Below are positions 1-46,200 of a DNA stretch of 64,000 nucleotides, piece after piece. Source of the DNA: Corylus avellana (lineage: Eukaryota; Streptophyta; Magnoliopsida; Fagales; Betulaceae); NCBI RefSeq assembly GCF_901000735.1, contig NC_081541.1, positions 42,563,021-42,627,020 on the forward strand, written 5' to 3'. The translations under genes were made by a program, and so were the position numbers. Every line of letters starts with the position of its first letter. Within the stretch, counting starts at the first letter, position 1. A model generated the notes under the pieces. That model was not told the origin of the DNA, did no database searches, and was given only the letters and a program-made list of their open reading frames with translations.

Positions 1-197
1 AAACCTCCTTACTGGTGAATGCAACACAAATATTACTGTCTTATAATTTAAAAAATGAGAAGAGCATTTTAGCTCCACCTGGCAGAAGGCACAGGAGGAA
101 ACAGGATAACACACTGCAGACAGTTAACTAAGCAATCGAATAACTATTGAAGGGTTTTCTTTTTCTAATGAGTTTTATGATTTTGATTTACAATCAG

Positions 198-374
198 GAA
201 GCTCGGCGAGCAGCAGAGAGAGCCTATGATGTGGCCAAGGTGGATGAACGGGTCAACAGGGCAGTAGCGGCAGCCAATAGGGCAGCCAATGCGGCTAGAG
301 TAGCGGCAGTTAAGGCCGTTCAAAAACAAATACACCATAATAGCAACAACAACATTCCAATTCCAATTGTGTGA
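198..374 (+). CDS. Last exon of an unidentified gene (Ala/Arg-rich C-terminus)
   Basis: A 58-codon 3' terminal exon. It follows a pyrimidine-rich stretch and a CAG acceptor at 195-197 and ends at TGA 372-374. The frame continues upstream only through intron-like sequence, so I start at the acceptor in phase 0. The peptide begins EARRAAERAYDVAKVDERV and continues as an Ala/Arg/Val-rich amphipathic helix with repeated RAANAARVAAVKAV-like turns, then a short N-rich tail ending PIPIV. This looks like a helical, possibly coiled-coil, C-terminus. The rest of the gene lies left of the window. The following 350 bases look like 3' UTR. I do not recognise the family. Confidence 0.55.
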   Translation, partial: EARRAAERAYDVAKVDERVNRAVAAANRAANAARVAAVKAVQKQIHHNSNNNIPIPIV

Positions 375-3039
375 GACTTTCAACTGTAGCTCGAGCTATT
401 TTAACGCATGAGATGGCGGCAGCATCGGGACAATTGCTTATGTCACCAATGTAGTTTTGTGTTTTATGTTGTAATCTTCTCTTTGGCGTCTTGCTTGGGG
501 AGGATTCAATTTGCTGTGCCTCTTTGGAACGTGAGTGGTAGAGAAGAAAATGGCAAAGAAGGGTGGAATGATCATCTATACTGCTTGAAGATTGTGTATA
601 CATAGAGATGAGACACAGAGAAAGAGAGAGAGAAAAAAGAAAAAGAAAAAAAAAAAAGAGGGTGGATGATGATGGCATCCATTTGTTCAACTATTCTTTT
701 AGTTTTCCATCTCAGTACAGTTTTGTAAAGATGAGGTAGATGTAATATAAAGTGCTGGTGCCGAGGTTAAACCTCAACCCAGCCACTGTTGTATGCGAAG
801 TTGTTGGCTTTTTATGGAGGTGACAAATTCTCTAACTATCCAGCCAAAGAAATAAGAAAGAGAGAAAGAAAGAAAGTCCATCTAATCTATTTGTTCTCTT
901 CTTTTTCTTTTTCTTTATTATTATTTTTTTCTTTTTTGGTTAGCTTCTTATTTTCTTGTTTGGAAAATGTTTGGGGTATTGCAGTTTTTACGCAAATTTT
1001 TACAAATTTCTGTACAATTAATATTTTATGAAAACGGGTGTCAAGTGAACTGTTATTTGGCGTATTATATTTTAGTAGCTGATGTGATAAATGATAAGTG
1101 AAATAGAGTGGATCTATTTTATGGTTTAGAGCAGATTTTAAAAATCTAATGGTGTATATATTGTCACATGGTGAATATGTTGTCACATCATTTAAATTTC
1201 TTAAATGATGTAATAATATGTACACGGTTAAATGAAACAAAATAAAATTTGGATCATAAAATGATTCATCTCCATTTCACTTAGAGCGGAGACAAAAAGG
1301 ATTATATTCCGTTTGTAGTAAAAATTGTAATATTCTTACCAACACACCTCTTATTAACAAAGCAAAATGTGCTATCCGAAGAAAAATTGTTCGAGAGAAA
1401 CGCTATTTAGTATACCGTTATACGATTGTCATACAAATAGATGATCTGACTGTAAAAATCAATCATTACAAGTATTAAAAAAAATTATTTTTTACTAAAT
1501 GAGAGAATGTGTGGCAAAGCGAGTTTGTTACCTTAAAAGGCAAAATAATGTAATCCGAGGAACAATTATCGGAGGGTGTTGAAATGGGTGGTGTGCACCC
1601 ATTTGACCCATGATTGTCGCAACCCATTCACATAGATATCATCATACAAATTGCCTATTATTCGCTAAATTTAGTTGTCATATGAAAGCATAGTAAAGGA
1701 CAAAAGGCCTGCTTACTTGTCTCTCCACTGCAATCTTTGATGTCACAAGGAAGGGAAAAAAAAAAAAAAAAATCATTATAGTGCTTTACTTTTTCTTTTC
1801 TTTTTTTGAAATAAGTTGACAATCTTCATTAGAAAAATCAAATTTAGAGTCAGCTTCATTTCTCATGCATTTTCACCATTCCTTTGTTGCTTTACCTTGC
1901 TCTTTTCCAAGTCTCAAAAGGAGAGTGAATGTGCCACAAATGATGGCCAAAGTTTTTTTCGGTCCAGTTTATTAAACTGATATTTGTCTTTAGAATGAAT
2001 ATGACCATTTTTATGTCATGATTCATATTAGATTTTGCAGTATAACATACCAACGTATATATAGTTAGATACTGCGAAATCTAATCCGGACCATGAAATG
2101 ATTCTTTCCCATTTCAAGAGAAATTGAGAGAATCATGTTACTTTTTGGAGTATATAGTCTCACATGCTCTAAAGATATCTGGAGAAAATATTTTGGAGGA
2201 AAACTTTGTTCATAAATAATAAACAAGTGAAAAGCTACATAATACATCATAACCTCAAACTCTTTTCACTACTCATTTCAAAACTTTCTTTTGCATTTTC
2301 TAATTTGTCAAATAGTAATACCACTCATCATATTTATTTCATATCGATTGATGTGAGGTGTTTCGAGTAATTTAAAATATATAACATCAACTGTCGTGAA
2401 ATGAATGTAAGAGTATCTTTGCAAATACACATTTAGGAACCAAGTTACTCTAAAGAAATTAGTCAACATTTCAGATGGCCTAAATTAGTCAATTATTTGC
2501 AATCATAGGCTTCTCTTTCTTTGAATCTTCTAGGCCAGGCCCATCTTTAATGATAAAAATCCCAATTCGATACTTTTAAGGAATATGGTATTATTTAGCA
2601 TCTTGTCAATTATTAATTTCTAAACCATTATTTTTGGCAGTTGGAAACAGGGATACAAGGTTTAATAATATAAAATGTTGAGAAATTATGACAATTTTAT
2701 CTTTTAAGGAATTATTATCCATTATCACTAGCCATAGACCCACATGACCAAAGTAGGTCCATAGATTACTTACAAAATTCAATTAATTTTCAAATTTATT
2801 TCTCATTGAATTTTACTTATACTTCCTTCTCTCTTTTTTTGGAATTTTTTTTTTTTTTTTGTTTTTCTCATTGAATTCAATGAATTGCACTACGCATACA
2901 AAACTCATCGTTAAAAAAAAGAAAGAAAAAAAGTTGTTTATTTGTTGTAAGATTTTCTTGGAAATGCCTTCCAATTGTTCGAATCGAGGTTAAGAAAAAT
3001 AACAAAACATTTCAATTATTTTAGATGAATAATAACAGG
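375..3039. other. 3' UTR then AT-rich intergenic sequence
   Basis: The first 350 bases are probably 3' UTR, with a GA-rich tract at 617-660 and an AATATAAA-like polyadenylation signal near 743. The rest is AT-rich with homopolymer runs (1759-1772, 2848-2861). Short open frames here are low complexity and have no recognisable protein. I see no gene. Confidence 0.5.
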
Positions 3040-3196
3040 AAAATGTTTGATGTTCTTCTAGTGTTCTTCTAGTATTCTTCTAACTGTGATGTGACTTTTA
3101 AAATCACCAATAGATTAAAAGTCAATAATGATTTAACGGTAATTTTAAAAGTCACATAATAGTTAGAAGAATATTAGAAGAACACCTAGCATTTCT
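3040..3196. repeat. Short foldback MITE
   Basis: The left arm, starting near 3040 with TGTTCTTCTAG and GTGACTTTTAAAAT, is the inverted copy of the right arm ending near 3196 (ATTTTAAAAGTCAC, AGAAGAACA). The arms are about 65 bases with a short centre. It shares the GACTTTTAAAATC-type core with elements near 14.2 and 14.9 kb, so it is one member of a dispersed family. It has no coding capacity. Confidence 0.65.
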
Positions 3197-3817
3197 GATA
3201 ATAACATGATAGATAAACTTGATGAAGGAGTTTCTAAATTAAAAGGTGAGAGTTAGGGTATAAACTACTAATTCCCCATTAACAAATCAATTAAAAATTC
3301 CTTCTAAAATTGCAGAGTCTGATATCTCATTGAACTATACAGTATAAATTAGGGTTTGGTTGCAGAGAAACTGGAGGAAACCAATCTAAGACAAACACTT
3401 TCCATTGTGTTTCTCATTTTACAGTGAATTGGCAAAAGCCATTTCAAGTCTCATTTTCCTTAGGAAACAAACAAAGACAAAAGAAGCTCAAGCAGCAAAG
3501 AGAACTATTTTTATGCCACGTTTTTCTGAAAAGTATTTTCAGCTAAACATCGAAACAAACGGTGCTTAAATGTGCCGAAAACAAACAAAAAATTAATCAC
3601 AAATCTCACTCGCCGTCTCGATTTAGCACCAAATTTAGAGGCAAGATATCATTTTCCTCGTGCATACAAGTAGTAGTAAAACACCATCAGCAAGATCCTA
3701 AGAACTAACCAACCATCCATTAACAAAAAAAAAGGCTTAAAGCCAAAGAAGAAATTGACCATAATCCTAACATGAAACAAGATGTCCGAATAGACATTAG
3801 AAATGTTTTTGTTCTTA

Positions 3818-6290
3818 CTAGCCAACTTGAGGTCCCAGAGAAGTAGAATCATCACCAATAGGTCTTTGCAGCAAGGGAATTGACAAGGTCCCAACCTCAT
3901 AGGACTGTCTTTCACTTTCCTCCGACCAAACATCAGGAGTAGGCAGTATTTCACGGTAATCACCTATTAAAATATAAATTAAAAGATTAAATCAACGATA
4001 TCTTATACACTTAAGTTTTTGAGATAAGTGGTGATTTAACATGGTATCAAAGCAAAGGTCCTGAGTTAGAACCCTGTATCCGTCGTCATTCACCTGCTAA
4101 TTTTTTCGCCTGTCGTTCTTGAGCAGCATCTTTGTGCACGTCCTCAATCTTTTTCGGCCCCTCGACTGTCCTCCTCTGCTGCCATTTATTCTTTCTCAAA
4201 TCAATTGCATCCTTCAACATGAACCTGACCCTAGAAGATAAATTCATGTTATTGGATAATGTCTTCATTCTATCAAAATATGCATCCATATGCTCCTTAG
4301 CTTTTTGGTGGTCGATCATCTCCCCAATAGTACTCATCAATTTGCACAAAGCTTCAAGATCTTCTTCATCAGGATCCTGAAACTGACCCAGCAATTTCTG
4401 TATACATGCATGCATTATTCGCTCAGTCAACATTTTCTTCTTGTACAACTCCCCAATTAATCGAATGTTACCCAACATTCGTCTTCTAGCCTTAACTCTC
4501 TTCTCTTCTCTTTCCTCTGCAGACTGTTTGATCTCACCCTCTTCATCAACTTTATTAGCTTCTTCTTGCTCTCTTTCCCCTCTCTCAAATTCCTCCTGGC
4601 ACTTGTTCAGAAGCACTCTCTTAAAAGTTATCTTTTCATTGTCTTCATTGAAATCAGGCAACTCCCCGGCCAGACGACAAAAGAAATTTACATACATCTC
4701 ACAGTACATAGGCTCCATTAAACCTCTGTCAAAGATCTGTGACACAACACCAGCTAGAGTGGCAACATTATCAATGTTAACTGCTTTCACTTGCTCAAAA
4801 AGTTTCTCAAACTTCGTTGGAGTAAGTTTGTTTAAAATAGCTCTTAATTGCCTTTGCTTTGCCTCTTCCTCATCCACTACTTTACCCACTTCATACTTCT
4901 TCTTAGCTTTGTGCATCATCAGTAATGGAGTTTGAGGAGAAGGAATTGAACCCTTGTGTTGAATATTGGTAGCACTAACATCATTTTGTGTTCTCCTTGC
5001 CTTGTGATAGTCATTATGAGATTCAATGACATCATTTAGCGTTCTACTTGTCTTAGAATCATCAGGATAATTCTGGTAAATATAAGATACAGAACTCCAA
5101 AGAGCCAAAAGCATAGCAATTACCTTGATGCTGTTCATCTTGTCATGGAAAACTATCACAAAAGCAATAGGAGTAACAGCAAAAGAGACAGTACTGATTA
5201 CGTTGGAGAAGAGAGATGAAGCCACAAAAATCAACCCCACAACCCCAACAGAGTAAATCTGCCAAGCCACAGCTGTCGAAACCAAAGTCATTACATAAGG
5301 AACTCTTCCTGCACCAAAACTCTCCATTTCCCCATGCAAACTCTTCCACTCCCCACTTGCAAAAAGACCCACAATCGAAACACAAGTGGCAACAAGTGAT
5401 GTATAGATTTGCATTTCCAAAACCACAGAAAATGTTTCCCTTTTCAGGATCTTTTGGAAGGAAAGCTGCATCAGGGAATGCAAAAGAGAGTAAAGTGCAG
5501 AACCTCCTAGGGTACAAAGGAGGCCAATGATATATTTCCACCTAGAAATTCCTGATGGTCCTTCAGAGTCGTCATTGACTGCAATCAGGGCAGCAGATAA
5601 TGAGAGGACAACCACAGAGTTAACAACTGAAGCAGTGAACCTCTGAGAATTGATGAAGTAAGAGAAAACCACATTAAAAGCTAATTGGGATACACATATG
5701 AGGGAGTAAGTAGAGGCAGGAAGGTACAAGAGTCCAACAGAATACATCATGTTGTCACCAGATATCAGCACTCCAAGAGAGAAGTAGATCAAGGCAAGAA
5801 TTTTAATAGAGGGTGGAGCCAATGAAGTTGAAGGCTGCTGAGAGGAAGGAATAAGAAAGAGGGGGATGAAAAGGATTGGGAAGGCAGCAGTTTGAACAAG
5901 AGTAGCCATCCATTTACCATTTCCACCCTGGTCATGATAAAATCTTCCATTAAGAACAACAGTAGATTGACCCACAGCGAGGAAGAAAATGTTGAGTGCC
6001 ACAAAAAACCACCATTGCCACCGCTCGAGTTTTCTCAGTAATAACTGGTTGGTCAAGGTTAGATCTTTGATCATGAGTTCCTGATTACCTGTAATTGGAT
6101 ATTAAGCATGTCTAAACCAGGTTTAGTATCCTTATTAAAAGACGGGTTTCATCAATCCAAAAAATTCACAGATTGGAGTAGTATTTAAACTTAAAAGCGA
6201 TCAATCCTAGAACAGTACATCAAGTACAGCAACATTTATAAAGACTCTTTCTCTACAATTTGAGTTTCCTGATACACCCACCAGCTGCAT
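3818..6290 (-). CDS. Chimeric gene: purine permease fused to eIF4G MIF4G domain
   Basis: One uninterrupted frame (ATG 6074 down to 4094) encodes a full-length PUP-type purine/cytokinin permease followed by an eIF4G MIF4G domain. Residues 1 to about 360 (from that ATG) hold about ten hydrophobic segments and family signatures such as GRFYHDQGGNGKW, LLYLPASTYSLICVSQLAF and FHDKMN. From about residue 366 (SATNIQ) the sequence matches eIF4G at 43293-52497 through the whole MIF4G domain. Upstream, an acceptor at 6089-6090 gives NQEL before the ATG, as in PUP10-like proteins. A small first exon at 6278-6290 (MQLVG) is plausible but uncertain. Downstream, a 130-base intron (3964-4093) joins in frame to an exon resembling the next part of eIF4G (RPIGDDS) and ending TAG at 3818-3820. 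The prediction is about 708 aa, or 717 with the small exon. It may be a membrane-anchored MIF4G protein or a decaying chimera. The frame is certain; expression is unknown. Confidence 0.8.
3964..4093 (-). repeat. Repeat-derived insert that reads as an intron of the chimera
   Basis: Relative to eIF4G and to the tandem copy at 6892-8086, this segment replaces coding sequence. The plus strand contains TGGTATCAAAGCAAAGG, which resembles the initiator-Met tRNA primer-binding site of Copia and TRIM retroelements. Related text occurs near 44815 and, in reverse, near 61010. On the gene strand it starts GTGAAT after CAG and ends TTTTAATAG, giving usable splice sites exactly at the edges of eIF4G homology. 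Removing it restores GGT GAT TAC in the eIF4G frame. Confidence 0.6.
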
Positions 6291-6891
6291 AGCTAAAAAC
6301 CACCATATATTGAAATTATTAGTCACTTATCAAAATGGTTTGATATGCAGAAGGCCTTAAACAAGGTCTAGTAAGAATACTTATGTGGCAATATGAGATC
6401 AAATACATGGTTCTCTAGTGTAGAAATGATCAAAATATGTAAGATGCTCCTTTACTTCATATTGTGGGGATGTACACTCTTCCAATAATCTCTAGAAAAC
6501 ATATCTAGTGTCAAAAATAGAGATTTTTGTCTATATCACATGTATATATGATACTAAAAGATAGCCTAGAGTAAAATGATGGCTTAGCCAAAGTAAAGAA
6601 CTCCAAAGGAAGGCAGAGAAGCTTTCGTTAGCCCTTATAATCCAAGAAAACTAGAGGGAAGTATTTGCTTCATACACGCATATTTAGATTCCAAAAGGCA
6701 TGTAATTTTCTTTCTCCCTCATAGAGGAAATAAGATAATAAGGGGGTACACTATATTTATATGTGCTATCAATGGGAGCAGCTCAAACAAAGAAGAGTCT
6801 GGTCAATAAGAGGTGAAAAACAAACAACACTAAGGCTGCTGTAACTTGTATGGAATTCTAATCATTGAAATTTGATGATTAATTAATATAA
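6291..6891. other. Spacer between the two MIF4G copies
   Basis: AT-rich sequence. If the upstream exon of the chimera is right, its promoter lies here. I find no recognisable protein or structured repeat. Confidence 0.4.
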
Positions 6892-8086
6892 CTAAAATTT
6901 AAGAGAGAGAGACAGAAAGAGACCAGCCTCACCAGACAGTCTTTGCTCCGACCGAATATCCTGAGTAGGCGGCACTCCACGGTAATCACCCATCTGAGCA
7001 TTTGGGGAAGATAACTTCATTGACCCTCTTGGACCAAAATCCATAGGTGCCCTTCTTGCTGACTGGTTTTTGCTCGAACCACGACCCAAGCTGCTAAATT
7101 GCACATGTCGTTCTTTAGCAGTATCTCTGTGCACTTCCTCAATCTTTTTCGGCCCTTCAACTTTCCTCCTCTGCTGCCATTTATTCTTTCTCAAATCAAT
7201 TCCATCCTTCAACATGAACCTGACTCTAGAAGATAAATTCATATTATTGGATAATGTCTTCATTCTCTCAAAATATCTATCCATATGCTCCTTAGCTTTT
7301 TCATGGTCGATCATCTCCCCAATAGTACCCATCAATTTGCACAAAGCTTCAAGATCTTCTTCATCAGGATCCTGAAACTGACCCAGCAATTTCTGTATAC
7401 ATGCGTGCATTACTCGCTCAGTCAACATTTTCTTCTTGTACAACTCCCCAGTTAATCTAATGTTACCCAACATTCGTCTTCTAGCCTTAACTCTCTTCTC
7501 TTCTCTTTCCTCTGCAGACTGGTGGATCTCACCCTCTTCATCAGCTTTATTAGCTTCTTCTTCTTGCTCTCTTTCTCTTTCCCCCCTCTCAAATTCCCAC
7601 TGGCACTTGTTCAGAAGCACTCTCTTAAAAGTTATCTTTTCATTGTCTTCATTGAAATCAGGCAACTCCCCGGCCAGATGACAACAGAAATTTACATACA
7701 TTTCACAGTAAATAGGCTCCATTGAAGCTCTGTCAACAATCTGTGACACAACACCAGTTAGAGTGGCAACATTGTCAATGTTAACTGCTTTCACTTGCTC
7801 AAAAAGTTTCTCAAACTTCGTTGGAGTAAGTTTGTTTAAAATAGCTCTTAATTGCCTTTGCTTTGCCTCTTCCTCATCCACCAATTTACCCACTTCATAC
7901 TTCTTCTCAGCTTTGTGCATCATCAGTTCCTTATTATCTGTAATTGGATATTAAGCAAGTCTAAGCAAGGTTTAGCATCCTCATTATAACATGGGTTTCA
8001 TCAATCCACAAAATTCATGATAACTTGAAGTGATCAATCCTAGAACAGTAAATCAAGAGAGAGAGAGAGAGACCTGGCAATGGCAT
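6892..8086 (-). CDS. Second MIF4G copy, permease-deleted derivative of the chimera
   Basis: The frame from ATG 7923 to the stop at 6892 encodes an eIF4G-like MIF4G domain (EKKYEVGKLVDEEEAKQRQ through DLRKNKWQQRRKVEGPKK) plus the following Arg/Ser-rich part (NQSARRAPMDFGPRG). It then diverges to a short tail ending LSLKF. Upstream sequence (7935-8057) matches the intron before the permease exon of the neighbouring chimera (6083-6225), so it descends from the same fusion. The whole permease part is missing. A splice model joins 8074-8086 (MPLP) to an acceptor at 7938-7939 and keeps the frame: MPLPDNKELMMHKAEKK, about 352 aa. It has no eIF4E-binding motif and no MA3 domain. It could be a small soluble MIF4G protein or an unexpressed relic. 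Confidence 0.65.
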
Positions 8087-9107
8087 GGTGCTTAGAGTTC
8101 CTGGGAGTAAAGCAAGATTTGGGCCCTGCAAAGATAACCATTAAGATTCCATGAGAAAATGAGAGCGAGGCTTTAAGAGGGTATTGGGTAACACAAACTA
8201 AGAGATTCCCTTCTTCCTTCTTTTCTTTCCTTAAAGCAGACGGCACACTTGGTACAATAAAGTCTTAAAGGTAGGAAAAAGTACAATAATTGCCAAATGT
8301 CATGGTTAAGAATACAGAGAAATGCTATAATCATTTTGAAGTGTTTATTGTTTTTGAAAATCACTAATGATTTGAAATTATGTAAATTAATCTATCTAAA
8401 ATTTAATAGTGTTTTTTTACTGTGAATAAACACTTAGAATTACATGTTGATTGTCACATCAAAGTAGTAAGCACTTAGAAGTAAATATAAAATTTGTCAA
8501 GTCAAGTGCTTACTTCCCTTATGTGAGATTTGTCAGGTCAACTTTTTACTACAATATTTTTTAATCTCATCTTATTTTCTTTCTTCAACTGATACCTTAA
8601 TAGGTAAGCAGTTAAGAGTGAAAAAGAGAGTTAGTATATTACTTTAAGATACAAAAGAGTATAAAAAAAGAAAGTTTGTGTATCATATATCAACTATTTT
8701 TCACACATGAAACTTTTTCTCTCGATATTATTAATTAACAAACCAGCCTGCTGAGAAAAAGTAAATAAATAAAATAAAATAACAAACCAGCATCTGGGAC
8801 ATGGTGCTTGCTTCATTGATTCTTTCAGAAGAAACATAATTTATCCTATTATCTTTCATTAAGCAAAACCTTAAATGGCGTGTTTTATGAAGCATTTGGT
8901 ACATGAAAGATTAGTTTTTATTTTATAATTACCCTATAATGTTGACGTGACAATTTTAATTAATTTTATTATTATTATTATTTTAATAAGGAGTGAGCCA
9001 TGGGTTGATTGGGACTACGAAGTTATTACCGTAAGATACAATAATGCTATACATTATCCCGAATCTCATGTAGAGTACTTAGGTTTTAACATTTTTTTTT
9101 TTTTTAC
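8087..9107. other. Intergenic, AT-rich
   Basis: There is a possible 5' UTR of the MIF4G copy to about 8250. A stretch at 8322-8530 contains AGAAATGCTATAA and repeated GCACTTAGAA/GTGCTTACTT motifs that look like diverged MITE sequence. I find no gene. Confidence 0.4.
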
Positions 9108-9678
9108 TTAGGTTTCAATTCGTATCACATATGATACTTAACTTATAGACAAAAAGCAGTTTAATACCTCTGCCAAACTAACCGACTGTCACGTGTCCTA
9201 ACATAAACATGCCACATGTCCTAAAACCAATAAATAAAATAATTAAAAATACTAAACCCTTTAAAAAATATATATTAGGCGGCCACCTCATTTTGGCTAT
9301 TGGCCACCCCCAGAAGTCATGTGGGTGACTTCAGCCACCCCCTATAGCCGGTTTGAGGTGGTCAAAAAGGAATAGTCGAAACCACCCCTAGATTGACCAC
9401 AAGAGGTGGTAAAACCACCTCCAATGGCCTTAGGGGTTGTTCAGCCACCCTAATATGGCCTTAGGAGTCGCTAAGCAACTCCTAATGGTCAAAATGGGGG
9501 TGACCAGGCCACCTCATATATATTTATTTATTTATTAGAACATTTTTAAGAACATGTGACATGTATATGTTAGGGCACATGACAGTTTGTTAGTTTGGCT
9601 GATAAAATAGTGACGGATGTACTAAACTGGTATTTAGCCATAAATCAAGTACCATCTACGATACGAATTGAAACCTAA
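9108..9678. mobile_element. Foldback element with long terminal inverted repeats
   Basis: The left end TTAGGTTTCAATTCGTATCA is inverted at the right end (GATACGAATTGAAACCTAA, 9660-9678). Inverted similarity extends roughly 180-200 bases inward through TAATACC/GGTATTT, CCAAACTAAC and ACATGT blocks. The centre (about 9280-9510) is GC-richer, with repeated GGCCACC and GGTGGT motifs. There is no transposase, so it is a non-autonomous element of unassigned superfamily. Related core text occurs near 53290-53470. Confidence 0.7.
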
Positions 9679-9706
9679 ACGTGAAAAGATAATTACGCCA
9701 AATAAA

Positions 9707-9708
<2 letters not shown>

Positions 9709-9740
<32 letters not shown>
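9709..9740. repeat. (AT)n microsatellite
   Basis: About 15 perfect AT repeats directly beside the foldback element. Similar AT runs occur at 29180-29200 and 57361-57387. Confidence 0.9.
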
Positions 9741-9742
<2 letters not shown>

Positions 9743-10488
9743 TAGATGCTTTTCTAATCGAATGTGGAGATGTTCTGTTCAAATTGGATGTGGCACCGAA
9801 TGCTATCAATTTAGATTTGCTCCAAACCAATCATTTGTTCTCCGGCCTAAATGACACTCTGACATTTTGTCGATTCGACGGGACATTTTGTATCCAAATT
9901 TTCTAAATTCCTAACATGAATCTCCCATTCCTAGTTGATCTAATGATTATAATTCTTTATTGAGCTATACCCATAAATCTCTTTATCAATGTTTTTATTC
10001 TCAACTTCTCTTTCGCCCACGGATTCATACTACTATTACCAAAAGATTGGCGAACGAGCAACTCCAAAACCTTAATAAAAATAGGAATTAAGGTTGTAAA
10101 TAAAACATCACAACATAGAAACAGCCACGAATAACCATGTAAGAGACCAAACCAGGCCTAAACGACTGGGGGATAAAGATAATAGAATCCCATAAACGTT
10201 AATTCCGTTCTCAATGACCCTGATTGCACATTTTCCATTGAAAAAAAGGGCACACTTTGTGATAGCGTGCCAACCTTGATTTTACATACTACGGAATACC
10301 AGCCAGAGAAGAAAATCAAAACTGCAATGATTAAACACAATAACCAGCGGAATCCTGCTTAGTCTGCATCAAGGCATGTAACGAATTATGAAAATAAAAA
10401 CAATAGCCACAAACTGTGTCACAAAATCTTTCACCAAGAACTACATTCTGATTGCTAATGTCAAAATTAAAGACAAAAACATATGATT

Positions 10489-12564
<2,076 letters not shown>

Positions 12565-22018: not shown

Positions 22019-24136
22019 TTAATCATGTTCAAGAATATTAACAGAATTGGCTTTGGCTCCAAGTGAAATTGGAATGTCCTTGGAATTGGAGTGGATATCC
22101 ATTGCTATAATATCTTCTGGTAGTTCATCCAACTTCATTTGTGTGTGTTCTATATCAAAAAATACGAGGCGTTAGTGTTATTATATAGCATAGTCAAAAA
22201 ATTATACAAGTCAATGAAGACAAAATATGCAAATAACTAATAATAAAAATAATATTACCTTCCTTTCCATATAACCAATCTTTAGTGCAAACTAATGCCT
22301 CAAGAATATTAGACTTGAGTGAACTCCGAAATTGATCAATCACACGCCCACCAACATTAAACGTGGATTCTGAGGCAACTGTAGAAACAGGAATACTCAA
22401 AATATCACGAGCCATACAAGCTACTTCAGGATAACGAAATTTACTTGCTTCCCAAAATGCAAGAATGTCCAAATCCATATTACTCTTCAGCTTAGGTTCA
22501 TCCAAATAAACTTCCAATTGACTCTTTTGTGGACCAAGATCATTCATTTCAAATGTAGCAAACTCCTGCATGAAAAAGAGAGAATATAAACATAGTTTAC
22601 TAATTAAAAGAATAAAAATATCACAAAATTCACTAAATAAACATATAATTTTACCTCCATCCAATCGGGATATTTTTGGCTATCAACATGTTTTTCAACA
22701 ACAATGTCGCTTGAAATTGTAGAAGTATCTTTATATTCCATAAAAATAGAGAATAATTTCGCACGAACATGCAAATACTTTATGGCACCATCAACGCCAT
22801 AAAGTTTCTTAAAGCAATAATCTATAAATTGAAGCTTGTAACGAGGGTCCAAGATAACTGCTATGGCCAACGCTACATTGAATTCTGACCAATATTTCTC
22901 AAATTTAGAGAGCATTTGATTTGCTATTGATCTCTTATACTCATCTTCGCTCGCATTTTGTTGCTTCAAGGTCACATAAATCAGAAAAACTGCTGGAAAG
23001 TATAAGTTGGATGTGGGATACTTAGTATTAGAAAAGCAACATGTAGCATCATAAAAACAAGCCAACAAAGTTATGATCTTCTCCACCTTATCCCACTCAA
23101 ATGCAGTAGGGCAATGCTTAAAGTTAGAATCAATAAACTCTAAATGACAAAAAGCACGCCGATAATAAAGAGCACTCTCAAGCATACTAAAGGTGGAATT
23201 CCATCTAGTTGGGACATCTTGTGTCAACCCCTTTTTGCTATCCAAAGACATTTCATTCATAGAATCAAGAAACCTTTGTTTACTCTCTTGTGATCCTTTA
23301 ACATATTTAATGCTATCGCGAACCTTTTGGATAGCACTATCAATCTCTTTCAACCCATCTTGTACTATCAAATTAAGAATATATGTATAACAATGAAGGT
23401 GAAAGAACTCACCATCACAAGGAAGGGCTTTCTTAATGTTCAATCGGGTTCTCAACAAGTCCACAGAAACATCAAGGGATGAAGCATTGTCTGAGGTTAT
23501 AGAGAAAACCTTGTACTCAATCCCCCACTCACATAGCAAACTATAAATTTTTTCACACAAAGATATATCATTATGTGGTGGGGGAATGAAAGAAAAGTTC
23601 AATACCCTTTTCTGTAAGACCCAATTATTGTCAAGAAAATGTGCTGTGATACACATATACGTGTTAGTCATCATAGAAGTCCACAAATTAGATGTTAAGC
23701 AAATTCTCCCAAGAGATGCATTCAACATAAATTTAACTCTTTGTTTTTCCCTTTGATGCATCTTAACCAAATCAGCCTCAACTATATTTCTAGAGATAAG
23801 TGGTACATCACTACGTAAGTATTGCAATATTTCTCTTAGACCAGCACACTCAACCAATGGAAAAGGCAAGTCATGCTTAATAACCGCTGCAATCAACAAT
23901 TCTCTAAATTTTTCAGCATCAAATTTAGAGGCACATACTGACAAAGATCCATTATTTTGAGATAAGTGCAACGGCCCAACATCATGTGTGTCTCTCCTCG
24001 TGCAAGTTTTCAAGAATGTAGCATCACAATACTCGCATTTGGCCCATGGCTTGTCGTCATTTGGACCCATAGGAAGGGGCTCAAAAAAGGTCCAAACATC
24101 TGAGGTCTTCTTACGCTTTGCCTTCTTTTTACTCAT
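22019..24136 (-). CDS. hAT transposase A, open frame but altered catalytic site
   Basis: Three exons (24136-22655, 22565-22259, 22149-22019) splice in frame to 639 aa of a plant hAT transposase of the BED-finger/HATC type. The ATG directly follows a CAG acceptor, so a 5' UTR intron is likely. The RNase H-like domain has PTRWNST and ILDPRYK. Exon 2 carries the HATC dimerisation domain with VASESTF and ALVCTKDWLYG. Two defects stand out. The first catalytic Asp motif reads TSNLWTS where copy C has TSDWWTS. The N-terminal BED finger keeps CEYC but lacks the His/Cys half that copy C retains. The frame is otherwise open. It is probably a recently inactivated copy, with domestication less likely. 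Confidence 0.85.
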
Positions 24137-26302
24137 CTGCACACATCAATACGTAACCATGAAAAGATCTAAACTCATCATCCCTATTTAGATCAACAAC
24201 ATTAAAATGACCTGGCACCCACCCCAAACCCCCAAATAAATAAAAAAGAAAAGAAACAGCTGATTGATCCATTCAACAGAAACAAATAGAATACAATAGG
24301 AGAAAAAGGAGAAAAACATAATAAGTAAAATTTGAACCAACAATGTGGTGACATGTTTAAATTCAGCTACAATTGATGATATAACATTCATTACATAACA
24401 AAAATGAATTTTATACACAATAATATGAAGAAAAGGAGAAGCATATACATCAACAAATTGTGAAGGACTACAATAACATAACAATATGGAAAGAGTGAAG
24501 AGCGGAGGGGAAGTAAAGGAAGCTAACCAAAATGAAACATCATTTCTTAAAAAAAAAAGACTTGTTCAACCACCCTGTCAAAGGGCACTGTAGCCAAGGA
24601 TTCTTCACCATTTTTTGAAGAGAAGTTAATGGAAGAGAGAATCACAAACATGAGAGGCAGAATGAGAAACCCTTGGTTTCCCAAGAAGGAAACCTTAACG
24701 GCAGAATGTGTGAAGCATGGTTTCCTTGGTGACACTTTGCAGCCGAAAGCCATTTTTGTCAAAAAGGTATAATTGGTGACACTTTGCAAACATTTTAAGC
24801 ACGACAATTAATACCAAACAAGTAGGTTTTAATGGTTTTGAAACATATATGAAAATCAAGCAACCTTCATGACTGAAACAAGCACGCATGGAAGACATTT
24901 ACTAAAGATAAGGGTGATAAAGAATGTGTAACCTTCAATAACTTCTAACCAAATGAAAAAGAAGAGTTATTTCAGGTTGAGAACAACATAGACTTTCATA
25001 CAACAGTACTCCATTGGATTTATTGTTAAGGTCATTACCTATTAGATTAGGCCAGCTGGTGAAGGAAATTATGCTTCAGGTATGCATGGTCTGCTAAACA
25101 ATTTTTGACTGATCCACAACCAGGAAACCCAACACAGGCTGAGATTGAAATAACTTTTATTTTGCTTTTTAGTTCTAGTAATCAAGTGAACCCACTATTT
25201 TGACATCCATTCCACCACTAAGGGAATCGATACACAATACCCATTGCCTCAACTAGCAATAACCCAGCTCTAACAGCACACACTTCTATCATATCATCTA
25301 GAAAAAACGCAAACCCATTAGCCCAAATGATCAAGCACTCTGCTATCTCCCACTCTCAGACTCCCTGAGTCTTCAAGAGTCAAGGTAGATCTGAGACTCC
25401 AAGTTAAGTTTACACCCCCCAGCTTCTGGCCTTTTCTCGACTTGAACTGAATGAGTGGACCTCTAAACCCATGGGCACTTTCAACAACAGCGAACAACTC
25501 CAAAGTTTTGCTGATGAAGAGTAGTACTAAATCTAGAAAAGCTTTGGGAAGGGACGTGGTGAAAAAGAAATGAGGACATACTATTAGCTTGAAGCCAATC
25601 ACGCCAGATCCAAATAGAGCAAACAATAGAGCACAAGGACAAGTAATGCAAGCCTATCAATAAAAAACGCAGAGAGACCTTAATCACAAAAGAATCGTCA
25701 CCATCCCCTTAGCTCTCAAACACAAAAATTACAGAACCAAAAAAAGATTAGAAAAAACAGAGAATGAGAACACTGTCCCCTTAGCTATCAAACACAAAAA
25801 CTAAAGAACAAAAAAGATTAGAAAAAAGAGAATGAGAATTAGACCTTGTGGACTATACAGAAATATACGGGTTTCACCGTCACGAACTTAGGGTGGCTGT
25901 TCTTTTCTTCTAAGTGGTCACGGTGATCAGTAGGTGCTGGACCGTTGGTGTTGCTTCAGCCTTCACTTGAATAGAGTGGGAGAGAACTCAGAGAAGAGAG
26001 AATGCGATTGAGAATCAGAGGTGAGACCTGGGAAGCATTGCTACTTTTAGCCTTTTACTCTTTTAATTAAGGCTTTGTTTTTTAATTGTAAAAAAAAATA
26101 AAATTCTAATTTAATTTATATTTTATACGAGTTATGGGGATCACCCATGGGTTAAGCGTGTTGATCTAGAATTGACCCTATTAAACAATTTAATTCGAGT
26201 TAACCCGAAATTGATCGAACCCGATTATACAAAACCCTAATCCGCTAATTTCTTGTTGGTTCATGTCGAGTTGACTAGTCATGTTAGAAATTGCCAGCCC
26301 TA
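22019..26302 (-). mobile_element. hAT element A
   Basis: The right (5') end is the inverted terminus TTGCCAGCCCTA (26291-26302), preceded by subterminal sequence typical of this family. The transposase is at 22019-24136 and a noncoding 5' region fills 24137-26302. The left terminus was not found, so the true left limit may lie between 21.4 and 22.0 kb or be lost. Much of the 5' region from 25457 is duplicated at 38765-39656. Confidence 0.6.
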
Positions 26303-29189: not shown

Positions 29190-32100
29190 ATATATATATA
29201 AAAGCTAGCAAAAACAAAAGAAAAAAGAAAAAAGAAACAAAACTCCATCATCATTAGATTCATTACAAATTAGGTTTTCATGAGCCATTATGTCCGATGT
29301 TGTCCACTTGAAGGATTCATGATCCATCACATGCAATCAAAGTTATGAAACACAGAAATGTGCTCCAGGTGAACTTGGAATGTCATAGGAATTGACATCC
29401 ATTGTCAAAATATCCTTTTCTTTGTTGTCCAACTTCATTTGTGTGTGCCCTATATCAAAAAATAAGAGGAATTAGTGTTATTATAGTGTAGTCAAAAAAC
29501 AATACAAATAAATGAAGAAATTAAATATGCAAATAACTAATATTACATTGTTATCCATATAACCAATCTCTATTGTAAACTAATGCCTCAACAATATCAA
29601 GCTTGAGTGGGCTCTTATATTGATCAATCACACGTCCACCAATACTAAAAGTGGATTATAAATGAACAGTAGAAACATGAATATTCAAAATATCACGAAC
29701 CATAGCAACTACTTCAAAATAGCGAAATTCATTTCCTTTCCAAAATGAAAGGATGTCAAATGTTGCATTCTTGTCCAAAGACCTAGGTTCCTCAAAATAA
29801 ATTTCTAATTGATTCTTTTGTGAATTAACATCAACTCCACAAAATGCTAAATATTCATACATGAAAAATAGAGAGTATAAACATAAATAATTAAGTAGTT
29901 AAGAGTATATATATTATATACTAAGTTATTAACAAGCTAAGAAATTAATAATATTATTCATCTTTTCCCAATCTAGTTTTTTGCGATGTTCTTGGGGCTG
30001 AACAACTATGGAGCTTGAAGCTCTAGAAGAAGTACTATGCTCCATAAAAAGTTGGACTAATTTATCACGAACATTCACAAATTCTACAGAATCCATAACT
30101 CCATAAATCTTAGTATAGTAGTAATTTACAAATTGAGCCTTGTAACAAGGATCTAAGATAACTGCTATGGCTAACACTACACTACACTGAATTCTGACCA
30201 ATATTTCTCAAATTTTGAGATTATTTGAGTTGCCATTAAGCTCTTATACTCATCTTCACTCACAAGGTGTTGCTTCAAGGTCATATAAATCATGGCAATT
30301 ATGAGAAAGTATAAGTTGATAGTGGGATACTTGGTACCAGAAAAAGTACATGTAGTTTGGTAAAAGCATGCTAAGAAACTACTGATATTATTCACATATT
30401 CCCACACAAGTGCAGTAGGACAATGCTTATAGCTTAAATCAATCATCTCTAAATAAGTAAAAGCACCCTGATAGTGAATAGCACTCTCAAGCACAAGATA
30501 TGTAGAACTTCATCTGGTTGGCACATCTTGTCTTAATCCCTTATTACTATCCAATGACATTTGATTCACAGCTTAAAGAAAATTTTGTTTTCGCACTTAT
30601 GATCATCTAACATACTTCACACTATCTTGAATCTTTTGGATAACATTATTGATCTCTTTCAATTCATCTTACACTATCAAATTAAGAATATGGGCACAAC
30701 AACGCAAATGAAAGAACTCACCTTCACAAAGGACTTTCTTAATGTTCAATGTTTGTTTTAATAACCCAATACAAACATCATTGGAATAAGCATTATCCAA
30801 TGTTATAGTGAAAATCTTGTTCTCAACCCCCCACTCTTGTAGCAAATTATATATATTTTCAGACAAAAATATATCATTATGTGATGAGGGCATAAATGAA
30901 AAGTTTAACGCTATTTTAGTTAATACACAATCTTTGTTAATAAAATGTGCAGTAAGGCACATATACCCATCAGTTGTCAAAGAAGTCCACAAATCAGATG
31001 TTAAACAAATTCTCGCAGAAAAAACATTCAAAATAGATTTAACCCTTTGTTTCTCCCTCAGATGCATCTTAACTAAATCAACCTTAACAGTATTTCTAGA
31101 GACAAATGGTACATCACTATACAAGTATTGATGTGTTTCTCTTACACCATCATATTCAACGCATGAAAAAGGCAAATCATGCTTAATAACTGCAGCACCC
31201 AACAATTCTTTATATCTTTTAGGATCAAATTTAGAGGCGTTTACTGACAGAGACCCTTTACTTCCAACTAAAAGCATTTGCCCAACATCAAGAGTGTTGT
31301 TCCACCCGCACACTTCAATGTGCCGCTTTAGATTTCTAGTTCCGTATGAACTTTGAGCCTTATATTGATTACCACACAACTTGCATTTTGCCTGTACCTC
31401 CATGTCCTTTGGATCGATATTAGGAACGATATCAAATTCTTTACCTTTTTCTTATTCCCCATAGAAATAGAAACATCTTCTTCTAGTGTATTTAATTCAA
31501 TGACATCGTCGTCGAATGCATCTTCAATCGAATCTCTCCTAAGTACTTTTTTATTCATTTACACACATAATCATTAGTTAAAGTATATACTTCCATAAAG
31601 CTACTTATTTTGGATAATCAAATCAAAATGAAATGTCATAAAAAATATAATTATTGTAGAAGATATCATATTTAATATTTTAATGATGGCTCCATTTCTA
31701 AAAGAAGGATATAGTGCGAGGCATGTGTATACATTTTAAAATAGGGGTTGACTTCATGGATGAAAAAATTCTCTGCCTTCATTATGTTTACGAAGGTCTC
31801 AGCCAAATGATTCCCAACTGGTGTTCTTTAATCAAAGAGAATAGCTAGGAAATTAAAAATGTTATTCTAAATTTGGGGTAGCATTTTTTTGTTCTTCTTA
31901 ACATTATTTTAATGTAAAAAGGGCTTTAATATGAGGTTTATTTAAATAGAGAAGAAAAAATAATTTATTTATTTAAAGGCCTAGTGAACTCTTCGAGTCT
32001 TCAGTCTTCACCTCAATTTCACTTTTTTCCTACCTTGCCACATCTCCTACTTCCCACTAACCACTGATTAATCTGATTATCCTTTCTTCCACCTTTCTTC

Positions 32101-34275: not shown

Positions 34276-37200
34276 TAAGGCTGGCAAAACGAGTAAACGA
34301 GTAGACACGATAAACTTATACACAAACACGACCTGTTTAAAATAACCGAGTCATATCAAGTAGACATAATCCGACATAACCCGTGTTCTTAGCAAGTAAC
34401 ACGACCCGACACAATTCGTTTAAAAAACCCTAAATGAAAAATAGAAAAAATAATGTAATAACAAATTGCCATTGAATAAAAACATTCACAAAGATTAGCA
34501 ATTTTCAACTCTATACATATTAGATAATCTATTTCCATCATAGCAATAAAGAAAATTATTAAAAAAATAATAATAATAAAATAAAAAAAAATAAAAAAAG
34601 AGAGAAAAAAGAGCTAACAAAAACAAAATAATAAAAAAAAAAGAGCAAAACTCTATCATCATTAGATTCATTCCAAATTAGGTTCCCATGGGCCATTATG
34701 CCTAGTGTTGTCCACTTGAAGGATCCATAATCCATCCCATGCAATCAAATATATGAATTATAAAACACTACAAATATGCTTATTTTAAAAAATATTAATA
34801 GATTGTGCTCCAGCTGAATTTGGAATGTCACAAAAATTAACATCAGTTGTCAAAACATCTTCTTTGCTATCCAACTTCATTTGTGTGAGTTCTATATCAA
34901 AAAATAAAAAGAATTAGTACTATTATAGTGTAGTAAAAAAATAATATAAGTAAATGAATAAATTAAATATGCAAATAACTAATATTACCTTGATCTCCAT
35001 ATAACCAATCTTTAGTGCAAACTAATGCCTCAACAATATCAGGCTTGAGTGAGCTCTTATATTGATCAATCACACGTCCATCAATACTAAAAGTGGATTC
35101 TGAAGCAACAGTAGAAATAGGAATACTCAAAACATCACGAGCCATAGCAGCTACTTTAGGATAGCGAAATTCATTTCCTTTCCAAAATGAAAGGATGTCA
35201 AATGAATCATCCATATCCATAGACCTAGGTTCCTCCAAATAAATTTCCAATTGATTCTTTTGTGAATTAACATCAACTGCACAAAATGCTAAATATTCCT
35301 ACATAAAAAAGAGAGAATATAAACATAAATAATTAAGAGTATATATATTATATACTAAGTTACTAATAAGATAAGAAATTAATGATATTATTCACCTTTT
35401 CCCAAGCTTGTGTTACTCGAGGTACTTGGGGCCGCTGAACAGCTATGGAGCTTGAACTTGAAGTTATAGAAGAAGCATTATACTCCATAAAAAGGTTCCT
35501 TAATTTATCACGAACATTCACAAACTGTACAGAATTCATAACTCCATAAATCTTCGTATAATAATAATTTACAAGGTGAAGCTTGTAACGAGGATCTAAG
35601 ATAACTGCTATGGCCAACACTTCACTGAATTCTAACCAATATTTCTCAAATTTAGAGATCATTTGAGTTGCCATTAAGCTCTTATGCTCATCTTCACTCA
35701 CAAGGTTTTGCTTCAAGGTCACATAAATCATGGCAATTACGGGAAAGTATAAGTTGGCAGTGGGATACTTTGTACCAGAAAAAGCACATGTAGCTTCGTA
35801 AAAGCAAGCTAAGAAACTACTGATATTATCTACCTTTTCCCACTCAAGTGCAGTAGGACAATGCTTATAGTTTTTATCAGTCATCTCCAAATAACTAAAA
35901 GCACGCCGATAGTGAATAGCACTCTCAAGCATAAGATATGTAGAATTCCATCTGGTTGGCACATCTTGTTTTAACTCCTTATGACTGTCCAATGACGTTT
36001 GATTCACAGCCTGAAGAAAAATTTTTTTTCGCACTTGTGATCCCTTAACATACTTCACGCTATCTCGAACCTTTTGGATAGCATCATTGATCTCTTTCAA
36101 TCCATCTTGCACTATCAAATTAACAATATGGGCACAACAACGCAGATGAAAGAACTCACCTTCACAAGGAAGGGGTTTCTTAATGTTCAATTTTTGTTTT
36201 AATAACCCAACACAAAGATCATTGGAATAAACATTATCCAATGTTATAGTGAAAATCTTGTTCTCAATCCCCCACTCTTGTAACAAATTATATATATTTT
36301 CAGACAAAGATATACCAGTATGTGGTGGGGGCATAAATGAAAAGTTTAACACCCTTTTAGTTAATACCCAATCTTTGGTAATAAAATGTGCAGTAAGGCA
36401 CATATACCCATCAGTTGTCAAAGAAGTCCACCAATCAGATGTTAAACAAATTCTCCCAGGACAAACATTCAACATAGATTTAACCATTTGTTTCTCCCTC
36501 AGATGCATCTGAACCAAATCAGCCTTAACAGTATTGCTAGAGATAAATGGTACATCACCACGCAAGTACTGATGTGTTTCTCTTACACCATCATATTCAA
36601 CATATGAAAAAGGCAAATCATGCTTAATAACTGAAGCAACCAACAATTCTCTATATCTTTTAAGATCAAATTTAGAGTCACTTACTGACAGAGATTCTGC
36701 TTTTCCAGCTAAGAGCATTTGCCCAACATCATGAGTGTTTCTCCCCCCGCAAACTTTACTGTGCTTTCTTAAATTTCCAGTTCCATATGAACTTCGAGCC
36801 CTATATTTATTACCACACGTCTTGCATTTTACCCATACCTCTGAGTCATTCGGATCAATATTAGGAACAATATCATAATATTGCCAAACAATTGAAGTCT
36901 TCCTACGCTTCTTTGTCTTTTTCCTATTCCCCATAGAAATAGAGTCATCTTCTAGTGAATTTAATTCAACCACATCATCGTCAATTTCGAATGACTCAAA
37001 TGCATCTTCAACAAGATCTTCATTATTCATCTACACACATAATCATTAGTTAAAATATATGCTATCAAGTATCAACTAGTTTAATGAGATTCAATGACTA
37101 TACAACATTCAGGTTGCAAGATTTAAAAATGATGCAATCAAATAAGTCAAGAAAGCTTCAGGAAAGACAAACCAAAATGCACTTAAAGGTAAATGTAATT

Positions 37201-43292: not shown

Positions 43293-46200
43293 CTAAATAA
43301 AATTTTCTAACTTTCTTGATCTGTTAGGATCTAGAGGCCTAAAATCCTCCAAACGCAAATTGGAGCTTGTACGGATTTCACTCAAGACAGAATCCCCTTT
43401 CTCTGATTTTATCATCTCCAAAATGCTTCCAAGAACATCTCCTGCAAGCCCCAAGTCTCGAAGACGACCTGGCTCCTCTCCTCCATCATGTATTAACATC
43501 CCAATCTCTCTCAAAGGGATCACATTTTCTGTAACGACTTTGGCAAATATACGACCAAGAAACTCCGGAGCTCTTGGGGCGTCATTTACAGCATCCTCCA
43601 AATTAGTCAGAACAGATTCAAACCTGCCCAGATGGAGGAAAGCAGCAGAATGTAAATAAATTTTTAGTGTGCCAATACAACAATGGATATTATTGTTAAA
43701 TGTCTTTTACCCTTTGATGAGATGGGCTTGACTCAAGACACCATCCCGAGATTTTGTAAGATTGACCAGAAGCTTCGCCAAAACATCCCGTTCCATGTCC
43801 TTCCTCTCAAAAGAGTCTGTGACCCATAGGGATACCATCAATGCATGGAAGCTTGGGGAATTCAACTCTTTAATGCACAATTCGACTTCTTTCTCATCTC
43901 TGGCACTGAAAATTAAATAACTTCCATCAAGTATTGTTGAACTTCCATCAAGTATTGTTGATAAACAAGTATGGAATCTCTATATTATTATTGACAGCCA
44001 TATATCACAACTATCCCAACAGCAAAAACTACACGTATGCAGGTAGATACCAAGAAACAAATACACAGATGAATTCAAGTATATTCCTCAGCCAATAAAT
44101 CAACACAATCACAGTTCAATTGGATTAGGCAAGCACCTTAAACCTTCTGCGATGTGCCTTGGCTGAGGTGCAAGAGGTACTAACCCCCACATCATTATCT
44201 CACAAAGCAGTTTAAATGACAAGAGTCCTATTATACAGCCAAAAGAAAGAGAGTTCTCAAAAACAAGCTGAAAAGGCCTAGCATCATGTTGCTTGGTTGT
44301 TGCCTAAGCATTATTAAATACACCCCTTCATGAAACACAGTTTGTGCTGTTCACTCTTGTACATCAAATGTCTTCCTTGAAAGTAATAAATGACCTTCAC
44401 CTTTTGCCACCAACCTAATTCTTGAACAACTACTATCTATTATTTATTCATTCTTTCTAATTTGAAAGCAACAAATGCTTCAAAAATGACACACTGAAAC
44501 CCTTGGAGACCACACCACAGATAATATGAATTAAGCACATTGTTAACGAGTCTCATCTAGATCATTTCAAAAAATCCAACAAGATGAGAAATCATTACCA
44601 CAATAGTATCAGAATAAAACCTTCATCAAGTCACTGAACTATGGCACCACTAATTAAAGGGTGAAAATACTAAACACAAAATAATAGAAAAAAATATATA
44701 TAGACTATTAACCAGGTTGATTCCCAAAACCTTGGGCATACCTAATAAAATCTAATTCGGCTTGTTCAAATTGGAGTTTTGTTAGAACACTAATTAATTC
44801 ACCCAAACTATTGGGATAAGTAGTAATTTAATACAGTATCAGAGCAAAGGTCTTAAATCAGACCCTAACTCTATTGTTTAGACCTATTTTAATTAAATAT
44901 TTCACGTGTTGTGTTTTCATTTGTTAAGGAGTTTAAGCTCACATGTAAGAAAGTGTATTATAAAATATTAATTAAATAATTAAATTTATAATTTTTATCA
45001 ACTTAAGCTTTAGGGACAATTAATGATTTAACAAGTTTCACCCAATTCCCTCGACCCAAAGACACCGAAAGAAACTAAGGCCATGTTTATTAAAATTTTG
45101 TTTTTTGTCTTTTATTTTATGTTCTCAAGAAAAATACATGAACAAACAATTAAAAATACAACAAAAAAAAAGCACAAAAACAGTTTTAACTTTTATGTCA
45201 TGTCATAACACTTTTTTAAACCAAAAGCATAAAATACCCTCTAATTAATATTTCCTACATCTACATGTTGAAAGTTACTTTCCCTAAAAGCAGGCTAAGA
45301 GTTCTCTTATTCTTCTAAAACTAATTAACAAAAAAAAAAAATGCTGGTGACACAAGCAGCAAAGTATGAATTCCACAATACAATTCACAGAAGAAGTAAA
45401 TTACCCTAAATCATAGACTTCTTAAGGCCCATCTTCTGATTGAGTACTACATCCCATAATTTGTTATGAAGTCGGAAAAAAAAAACCCTCTTAGAATAAC
45501 TAGTAGTACAAGTCAGAACAATTAGTTATTTCCAAGTCTAAATAATCCAAGGAAATGCACTGTTCCAAAAACAATAAAATGGAAGACCAAAAAATGGGAA
45601 GCACACCTACAACTTTTAAGAAAGCTATTAATCTGTTACTCCACACTCCTGAGGTCCAAATGTGACAAGCATGCACCAACACAGTACCAGATAAATAAGC
45701 CATAAACACACTCGCCACCACTTTCATCAACAAATGCCTCAAAATAAATAACATGGGCATAATTTAACATTTTAGCCCGTCTTTGTCTAATTCCACTCCA
45801 AGAAAAATTGACTATTCAAAGCAAAGAAGCAAAAAGACCCATAGTCTGCTCGATTATTTTATTTGACAACATGCAGCATTAGGGACATCAGTTGCAAAAT
45901 ATAATACGCAGACTACTCTGTACTTAAATCAAGCAATCTAAGATTATGGAAGTTGAAAATCACACATCAAATTTTATTGAAGATTCACTGTTCAGCCTTA
46001 CTTTCCATTTTAAGCTAATATTCTTTGGATACATCAGTACTAGATAAATGCACAGAGGTTTTAATGTAAGCACCCATACACTAGAATGTAGATGATGCAA
46101 AATTTTCTAAACTAAAATGTAAAAATGACAAGAATAACAGGATGATTAATGCATGCACAAAACAAGATGATACCTGTAGAATTCTTTAATTGCTGCCATG

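Follow-up and report, generated by a model that had tools for sequence, protein, structure and literature searches.

The window, i.e., the whole 64,000-nucleotide stretch of hazelnut (Corylus avellana) DNA analyzed here, contains a real chimeric gene of unusual architecture, common to other sequences, in which a purine permease (PUP) is joined in frame to the MIF4G domain of eIF4G. Judging from the sequence comparisons below, this is probably a PUP11-like transporter gene that carries relaxed, eIF4G-derived passenger segments. In the paper collection searched, no paper has both a purine permease and MIF4G, in agreement with the initial annotation, to which no described protein of such architecture was known; the locus name, LOC132185427, was not found in this collection either, and, to our knowledge, fusions of a transporter with a translation factor domain are unusual. 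Given that both parents are located within about 144 kb, that the join is exact to the base, and that there are relatives elsewhere and copies with broken second halves, the gene is a good case for asking how one half of a chimera is maintained while the other drifts.

Architecture of the Fusion Gene

A single open frame of 671 codons spans positions 6101–4086 of the minus strand (ORF analysis) and, as initially annotated, joins a complete PUP to MIF4G without a stop, both domains being present in full length. The PUNUT domain (PF16913) occupies frame residues 34–350 (window 5052–6002, minus strand) and matches positions 3–321 of the 321-position profile (Pfam, E 2.5e-121) with 405.3 bits compared to the curated cut-off of 30.6, which places this half in the PUNUT/purine permease family. 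The MIF4G domain (PF02854; copy 1) follows at residues 417–639 (4185–4853, minus strand) and matches profile positions 2–203 of 203 (Pfam, E 9.8e-46). A second MIF4G copy, without PUP, is contained in the frame 7950–6892 (minus strand); both copies (156.5 bits for copy 1 and 153.2 for copy 2) exceed the curated cut-off of 30.8.

The 671-codon frame shows 100% identity over 100% to P0001, isoform X2 of NCBI LOC132185427 from C. avellana, a predicted protein of 1052 aa named only "uncharacterized protein," with the domain order MIF4G-PUP-MIF4G (PUNUT is found once and MIF4G twice). Four minus-strand exons of the NCBI model, when spliced at GT-AG introns, reproduce P0001 letter for letter: a PUP11-type first exon (8086–8074); exon 2 (7937–6933), in which MIF4G copy 2 (match at about 7180–7857) comes after the opening codons of PUP exon 2 and the PUP body is missing; the fusion exon (6088–4094), encoding the PUP11-like body together with MIF4G copy 1; and, from our rebuild of the model, a last exon (3963–3818) with an eIF4G-derived tail that ends in TAG. 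The ends of the stop-to-stop frame extend a few codons into the introns on both sides. Accordingly, the frame described initially is real but the gene is larger than noted, the upstream MIF4G copy at 7937–6933 having been missed. A separate first exon near 6290, where the initially annotated stretch ends, is unlikely because the parent PUP11 has an intron there: the stretch near 6290 aligns with PUP11 intron 1.

Could adjacent genes have been wrongly merged by the gene model or the assembly? We consider this extremely improbable. Models combining PUP with an Arf domain do occur among the matches listed (P0053, P0069, P0086) and may be run-on models of neighbors, and the splice that links MIF4G copy 2 to the PUP exon is a predicted one. 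However, PUP and MIF4G copy 1 lie within a single exon, with no splice between them, and seven JGI proteins carry the PUP-MIF4G fusion, so that the hazelnut fusion is not an assembly error. For the junction between PUP and MIF4G copy 1, an artifact of this kind is ruled out.

The last intron (4093–3964) is 130 bases long, has GT-AG ends and resembles two segments near the native eIF4G gene (45033–44961 and 44865–44811; 76–78%); perhaps it is a piece of a transposon turned intron. A search of window positions 1–12000 against Rfam at the gathering threshold gave no match.

Origin of the Chimera from PUP11 and eIF4G

The PUP parent is PUP11 (G000:C1:42709870-42710961(+), locus L058; PUNUT family PF16913). 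Corylus PUP11 shows 80% protein identity to frame residues 1–364, and the relationship extends over exon 2, intron 1, and the first-exon region. At the DNA level, positions 8058–8194 (minus strand) are related to the PUP11 5′ end and exon 1 (75% over 137 bases), and the intron sequence at 6089–6680 (minus strand) is related to PUP11 intron 1 (84–85% in two matched pieces); the latter homology covers 6680–6548 and the first part of 6502–5013, with exon 2 matched as well. Unlike the fusion, which has eIF4G sequence in place of the last 8 codons of PUP11, the parent has its own stop.

Frame residues 375–665 show 90% protein identity to the native Corylus eIF4G, all from one uninterrupted exon. 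This large exon (46146–49391, minus strand; MIF4G at 46899–47567) is, of the intact sequences found in the hazelnut genome, the one closest to the two MIF4G copies, and the native gene has further exons beyond it. The fusion differs from native eIF4G in that it lacks sequence upstream of ATNIQ, has no MA3, and has a different downstream tail. The fusion gene, PUP11, and native eIF4G are all located within about 144 kb. On the minus strand, the interval that separates the fusion gene from native eIF4G holds three open frames (22194–24145, 30669–31451, and 35363–37030) that resemble hAT-type transposases.

The two parental sequences meet at 4973–4975 (minus strand), within the range of 4970–4990 where the junction had been predicted. 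The join sequence in the fusion is ..GATGTTAGTGCTACCAATATT.., compared to ..GATGTTAGTGAATC.. in PUP11 and ..CTGCGTGCTACCAATATT.. in native eIF4G, and the 3-base GTG at the join is common to both parents. The eIF4G-derived DNA starts at 4975 in copy 1 and at 7927 in copy 2, adjoining MIF4G in each case.

Because the sequence of PUP11 intron 1 has been kept, the chimera is a product of DNA-level duplication rather than a retrocopy; an origin as a retrogene, which would entail loss of this intron, is ruled out. Genomic DNA with most of PUP11 (the 5′ end, intron 1, and exon 2 except the last 8 codons) is fused in frame to part of an exon from an eIF4G copy, this part beginning immediately ahead of MIF4G. 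A further copy, which has a PUP11-type start but lacks PUP, is located in tandem upstream. In copy 2, PUP exon 1 and a short intron are followed by the first PUP codons joined directly to MIF4G, and therefore this copy is most simply regarded as a tandem copy that lost the PUP body. Upstream of copy 1, a 42-base match (83%) places the sequence inside PUP11 intron 1, and copy 1 seems to be devoid of a PUP exon 1 of its own. By this account, the unit would have been duplicated in tandem, after which one copy lost the PUP body and the other lost PUP exon 1.

Relatives Carrying the Fusion

The suggestion that PUP and MIF4G be sought in one protein elsewhere proved productive. Among the 120 matches listed of 854, eight contain both PF16913 and PF02854, namely P0001 and seven JGI proteins (P0003–P0007, P0010, and P0013) that are 81–85% identical to the hazelnut frame; a second protein listing included both domains in 4 of the 120 matches listed, all among these eight. 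PF16913 is present in 7/7 of the JGI fusions, and in the two that were scanned (P0003 and P0007) the match reaches profile position 319 of 321. Five of the seven (P0003–P0006 and P0013) have the joining residues DVSTTNIQQKGSIPSPQTPLLMMHKA, shared with the DVSATNIQHKGSIPSPQTPLLMMHKA of hazelnut. The join in P0007 and P0010 (KDKGLIPSPQTPLLMMHKA) is shorter, and a small deletion would explain this shorter form (KDKGLIPSPQTPLL), although a separate event could do so too. A 121-residue query centered on the junction matched 5 proteins, none of them spanning both PUP and MIF4G.

In a tree of PUP sequences, those of the fusions group with P0025 in a single clade (support 100/99), which is joined to Corylus PUP11 (93/89). 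In the MIF4G tree, which leaves out P0015 as it has no anchor motif, the hazelnut copies belong to a "type-2" clade (99/98) together with the seven JGI fusions, P0038, and the JGI proteins P0107 and P0203. Within this clade, the type-2 eIF4G-like proteins P0038 (Carpinus fangiana FH972_011034) and P0107 (JGI) are, unlike the hazelnut fusion, without PUP, whereas the end of the P0038 MIF4G (..QAKKLAG) is the same as in the hazelnut fusion. P0038 is a predicted eIF4G-like protein that contains repeated SISKDKPSLDLSKGKS segments.

The simplest account of these trees and joins would be a single fusion event before the split of the hazelnut and JGI lineages. Our guess is that the hosts of the JGI fusions are other Betulaceae. 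For a time scale, one plastome study (PMC9789603) places the crown of this family at about 70 Ma and the separation of Corylus from the other Coryloideae at about 43.5 Ma.

The second half of the fusion is broken in several of these proteins, with the qualification that the frame breaks in the JGI proteins and in P0025 are those of gene calls on contigs, in which sequencing errors are possible. Three of the seven (P0005, P0006, and P0013) go out of frame inside MIF4G. In P0007 and P0010, several conserved residues of the central MIF4G helix are changed and an unrelated tail follows. The gene call of P0025, the nearest to the hazelnut fusion, ends with ..GSIASPQTP before MIF4G, at either a stop or a contig end. 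The MIF4G of P0007 and P0010 is truncated, yet their PUP parts are 97–99% identical to those of P0003 and P0004; one plant may carry two or more fusion loci or alleles.

Constraint on the PUP Half

Scans for DNA of the relatives gave no pattern match in viral contigs, and the 4 stretches that matched a pattern in genome contigs did not encode a relative; hence all dN/dS values given here come from hazelnut paralogs only. The pairwise omega between the fusion PUP and PUP11 is 0.585 (p = 0.008 against 1). In the branch test with two of the three outgroups tried (L032 and L033), the fusion branch has omega values of 0.59 and 0.57, which do not deviate from 1 (p = 0.36 and 0.42), and the PUP11 branch has 0.55 and 0.65; as both branches are similar in omega, this test does not separate the fusion PUP from PUP11.

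The PUP coding sequence (1086 aligned bases) is interrupted by only two gaps, 4 and 23 bases long, whose sum of 27 keeps the frame. By comparison, 399 bases of the neighboring intron contain 14 gaps (one probably an end artifact). With the intron as the yardstick, a neutral PUP would be expected to accumulate 14.5 frame-breaking indels, with a chance of none of about 5e-7; this and the other indel expectations given below are upper bounds because indels may accumulate more rapidly in introns than in coding sequence. The neutral expectation for stops is about 4–6, with a probability of 0.003–0.02 for a stop-free sequence.

Changes were further mapped onto invariant sites, defined by comparing Corylus with 8 other native sequences (156 of 327 sites in PUP and 169 of 235 in MIF4G). 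Held-out native PUPs avoid such sites in 10/10 cases, with only 1–8 of 52–73 changes falling on them. Weak avoidance was detected for 9/9 PUPs of the fusion clade (P 0.0001–0.026), which are closely related and thus not independent: 19 of 56 changes in hazelnut are at invariant sites vs. 26.7 expected (P = 0.026), and the numbers are 11–16 in the seven JGI fusions and 21 of 62 in P0025. Compared with the native proteins, the counts of the hazelnut sequence indicate that its PUP half is relaxed; nevertheless, it keeps the frame and some constraint.

These observations weigh on the possibility that the gene is a dying chimera, that is, a transcribed or silent relic that has stayed open by chance and through past gene conversion from native eIF4G. 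This appears unlikely. The fusion-branch omega values of about 0.55–0.6 for both PUP and MIF4G, not different from 1, the apparent lack of a first exon of copy 1's own, the three JGI relatives that are out of frame in MIF4G, and the low second-half synonymous change in both MIF4G copies (see below) are all as expected of such a relic. By contrast, the low neutral probabilities for a PUP free of stops and frame-breaking indels, the presence of the PUP domain in all seven JGI fusions, and the avoidance of invariant sites by PUP changes argue against it. The initial annotation held that the open frame is unlikely for an old pseudogene; for the PUP half, with its frame kept and its invariant sites avoided, this stands, but the MIF4G half shows no signal of constraint.

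Probable Drift and Possible Gene Conversion of the MIF4G Copies

For MIF4G, the fusion branch has an omega of 0.55 (p = 0.35) and the copy 2 branch one of 0.62 (p = 0.29), neither different from 1; the value for the branch to native eIF4G is 0.27 (p = 0.0006); the pairwise values are 0.59 between copies 1 and 2 (p = 0.12) and 0.32 (NG86) between copy 1 and native eIF4G. Held-out native eIF4Gs avoid invariant MIF4G sites in 10/10 cases (1–7 of 23–33 changes), compared to 0/8 for the type-2 MIF4G sequences (P 0.16–0.51), which thus do not show the constraint typical of eIF4G; with 17–27 changes each the power of this test is limited, although native sequences with as many changes pass clearly. 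The hazelnut counts are 11 of 17 vs. 12.2 expected for copy 1 and 16 of 26 vs. 18.7 for copy 2. These data do not bear out the function initially envisaged for the MIF4G half, given the non-significant omega of 0.55, the disregard of invariant sites, and the loss of frame in 3/7 JGI relatives.

Both hazelnut copies of MIF4G are nonetheless open and complete. Since the copies split, about 1.3 stops would be expected in copy 1 (probability of none about 0.26), and by the intron yardstick, 3.2 frame-breaking indels in copy 1 (probability of none 0.04) and 5.6 in copy 2 (0.004). Given that more frame breaks are expected in copy 2 and none are seen, frame retention is stronger in this copy, which precedes PUP in the reading order of the NCBI model.

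The ratio of MIF4G to PUP distance has a median of 0.45 (0.13–0.65) across 36 native pairs. It is 0.80–1.18 between hazelnut and four JGI fusions and 2.6–10.6 in 5/6 pairs among these four, the sixth being zero. Between the hazelnut fusion and its hazelnut parents, the ratio is 0.39, inside the native range; this value speaks against a simple passenger and may have its source in gene conversion. Only 4 synonymous and 2 nonsynonymous changes separate copy 1 from native eIF4G over the 138 codons of the second half. Synonymous changes in the second vs. the first MIF4G half number 4 vs. about 15 in copy 1 and 5 vs. about 16 in copy 2 (rough Fisher p 0.007 and 0.004, respectively), and the second half of copy 2 contains 13 nonsynonymous changes. 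The low second-half synonymous change in both copies (4185–4853 vs. 46899–47567 for copy 1) suggests gene conversion. The complete open MIF4G copies, the low change in copy 1, the ratio of 0.39, the pairwise omega of 0.32, an H1-CT motif with one altered core residue, and the relaxed state of the PUP half itself count against our preferred reading.

Possible Functions of the Fusion Protein

On the reading that we prefer, a transporter gene with relaxed passengers, the product would be a PUP-type transporter that tolerates the two segments added from eIF4G. Because PUP is read through it, the N-terminal MIF4G would have to stay in frame, and the C-terminal MIF4G could drift more freely. A DMT-type carrier with ten helices is expected to have both termini in the cytosol, so that weak binding to eIF4A or eIF3 may occur. 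Coupling of transport to translation and tethering of eIF4A to the membrane are possible but not favored on these comparisons.

A more active role would be that of a membrane-anchored translation scaffold or decoy, in which one or two MIF4G domains, held at a membrane by PUP, would bind eIF4A/eIF3 there and raise or damp translation locally, possibly in coordination with the transport of purines or cytokinins. We regard this as quite unlikely. In its favor, MIF4G is in frame and full-length in both hazelnut copies, the fusion recurs in the seven JGI proteins, frame retention in copy 2 is better than neutral, the second half of copy 1 has changed little, and the H1-CT motif is mostly kept. Nevertheless, invariant eIF4G sites are not avoided in 8/8 type-2 MIF4G sequences, omega of MIF4G on the fusion branch is not below 1, the conserved helix is changed in P0007 and P0010, the frame is lost within MIF4G in P0005, P0006, and P0013, and P0001 has no MA3.

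It is even more doubtful that cytosolic MIF4G arms at both ends capture eIF4A/eIF3 and would tie purine or cytokinin flux to translation or serve as a viral decoy; the decoy, if true, would be aimed at viruses that need eIF4G. If the MIF4G still binds eIF4A, the protein would amount to a piece of a translation factor tethered to a membrane, an architecture for which the paper collection searched gave no match.

With respect to other eIF4G features, no MA3 domain was found after MIF4G in P0001, and the eIF4E-binding region before MIF4G is absent by the extent of homology, given that the eIF4G-derived DNA starts beside MIF4G. The core of the H1-CT motif, RRx5KxIxExHxxA (PMC3352336), contains a single change in each of three sequences compared, namely D for E in copy 1, T for the last A in copy 2, and N for K in P0003.
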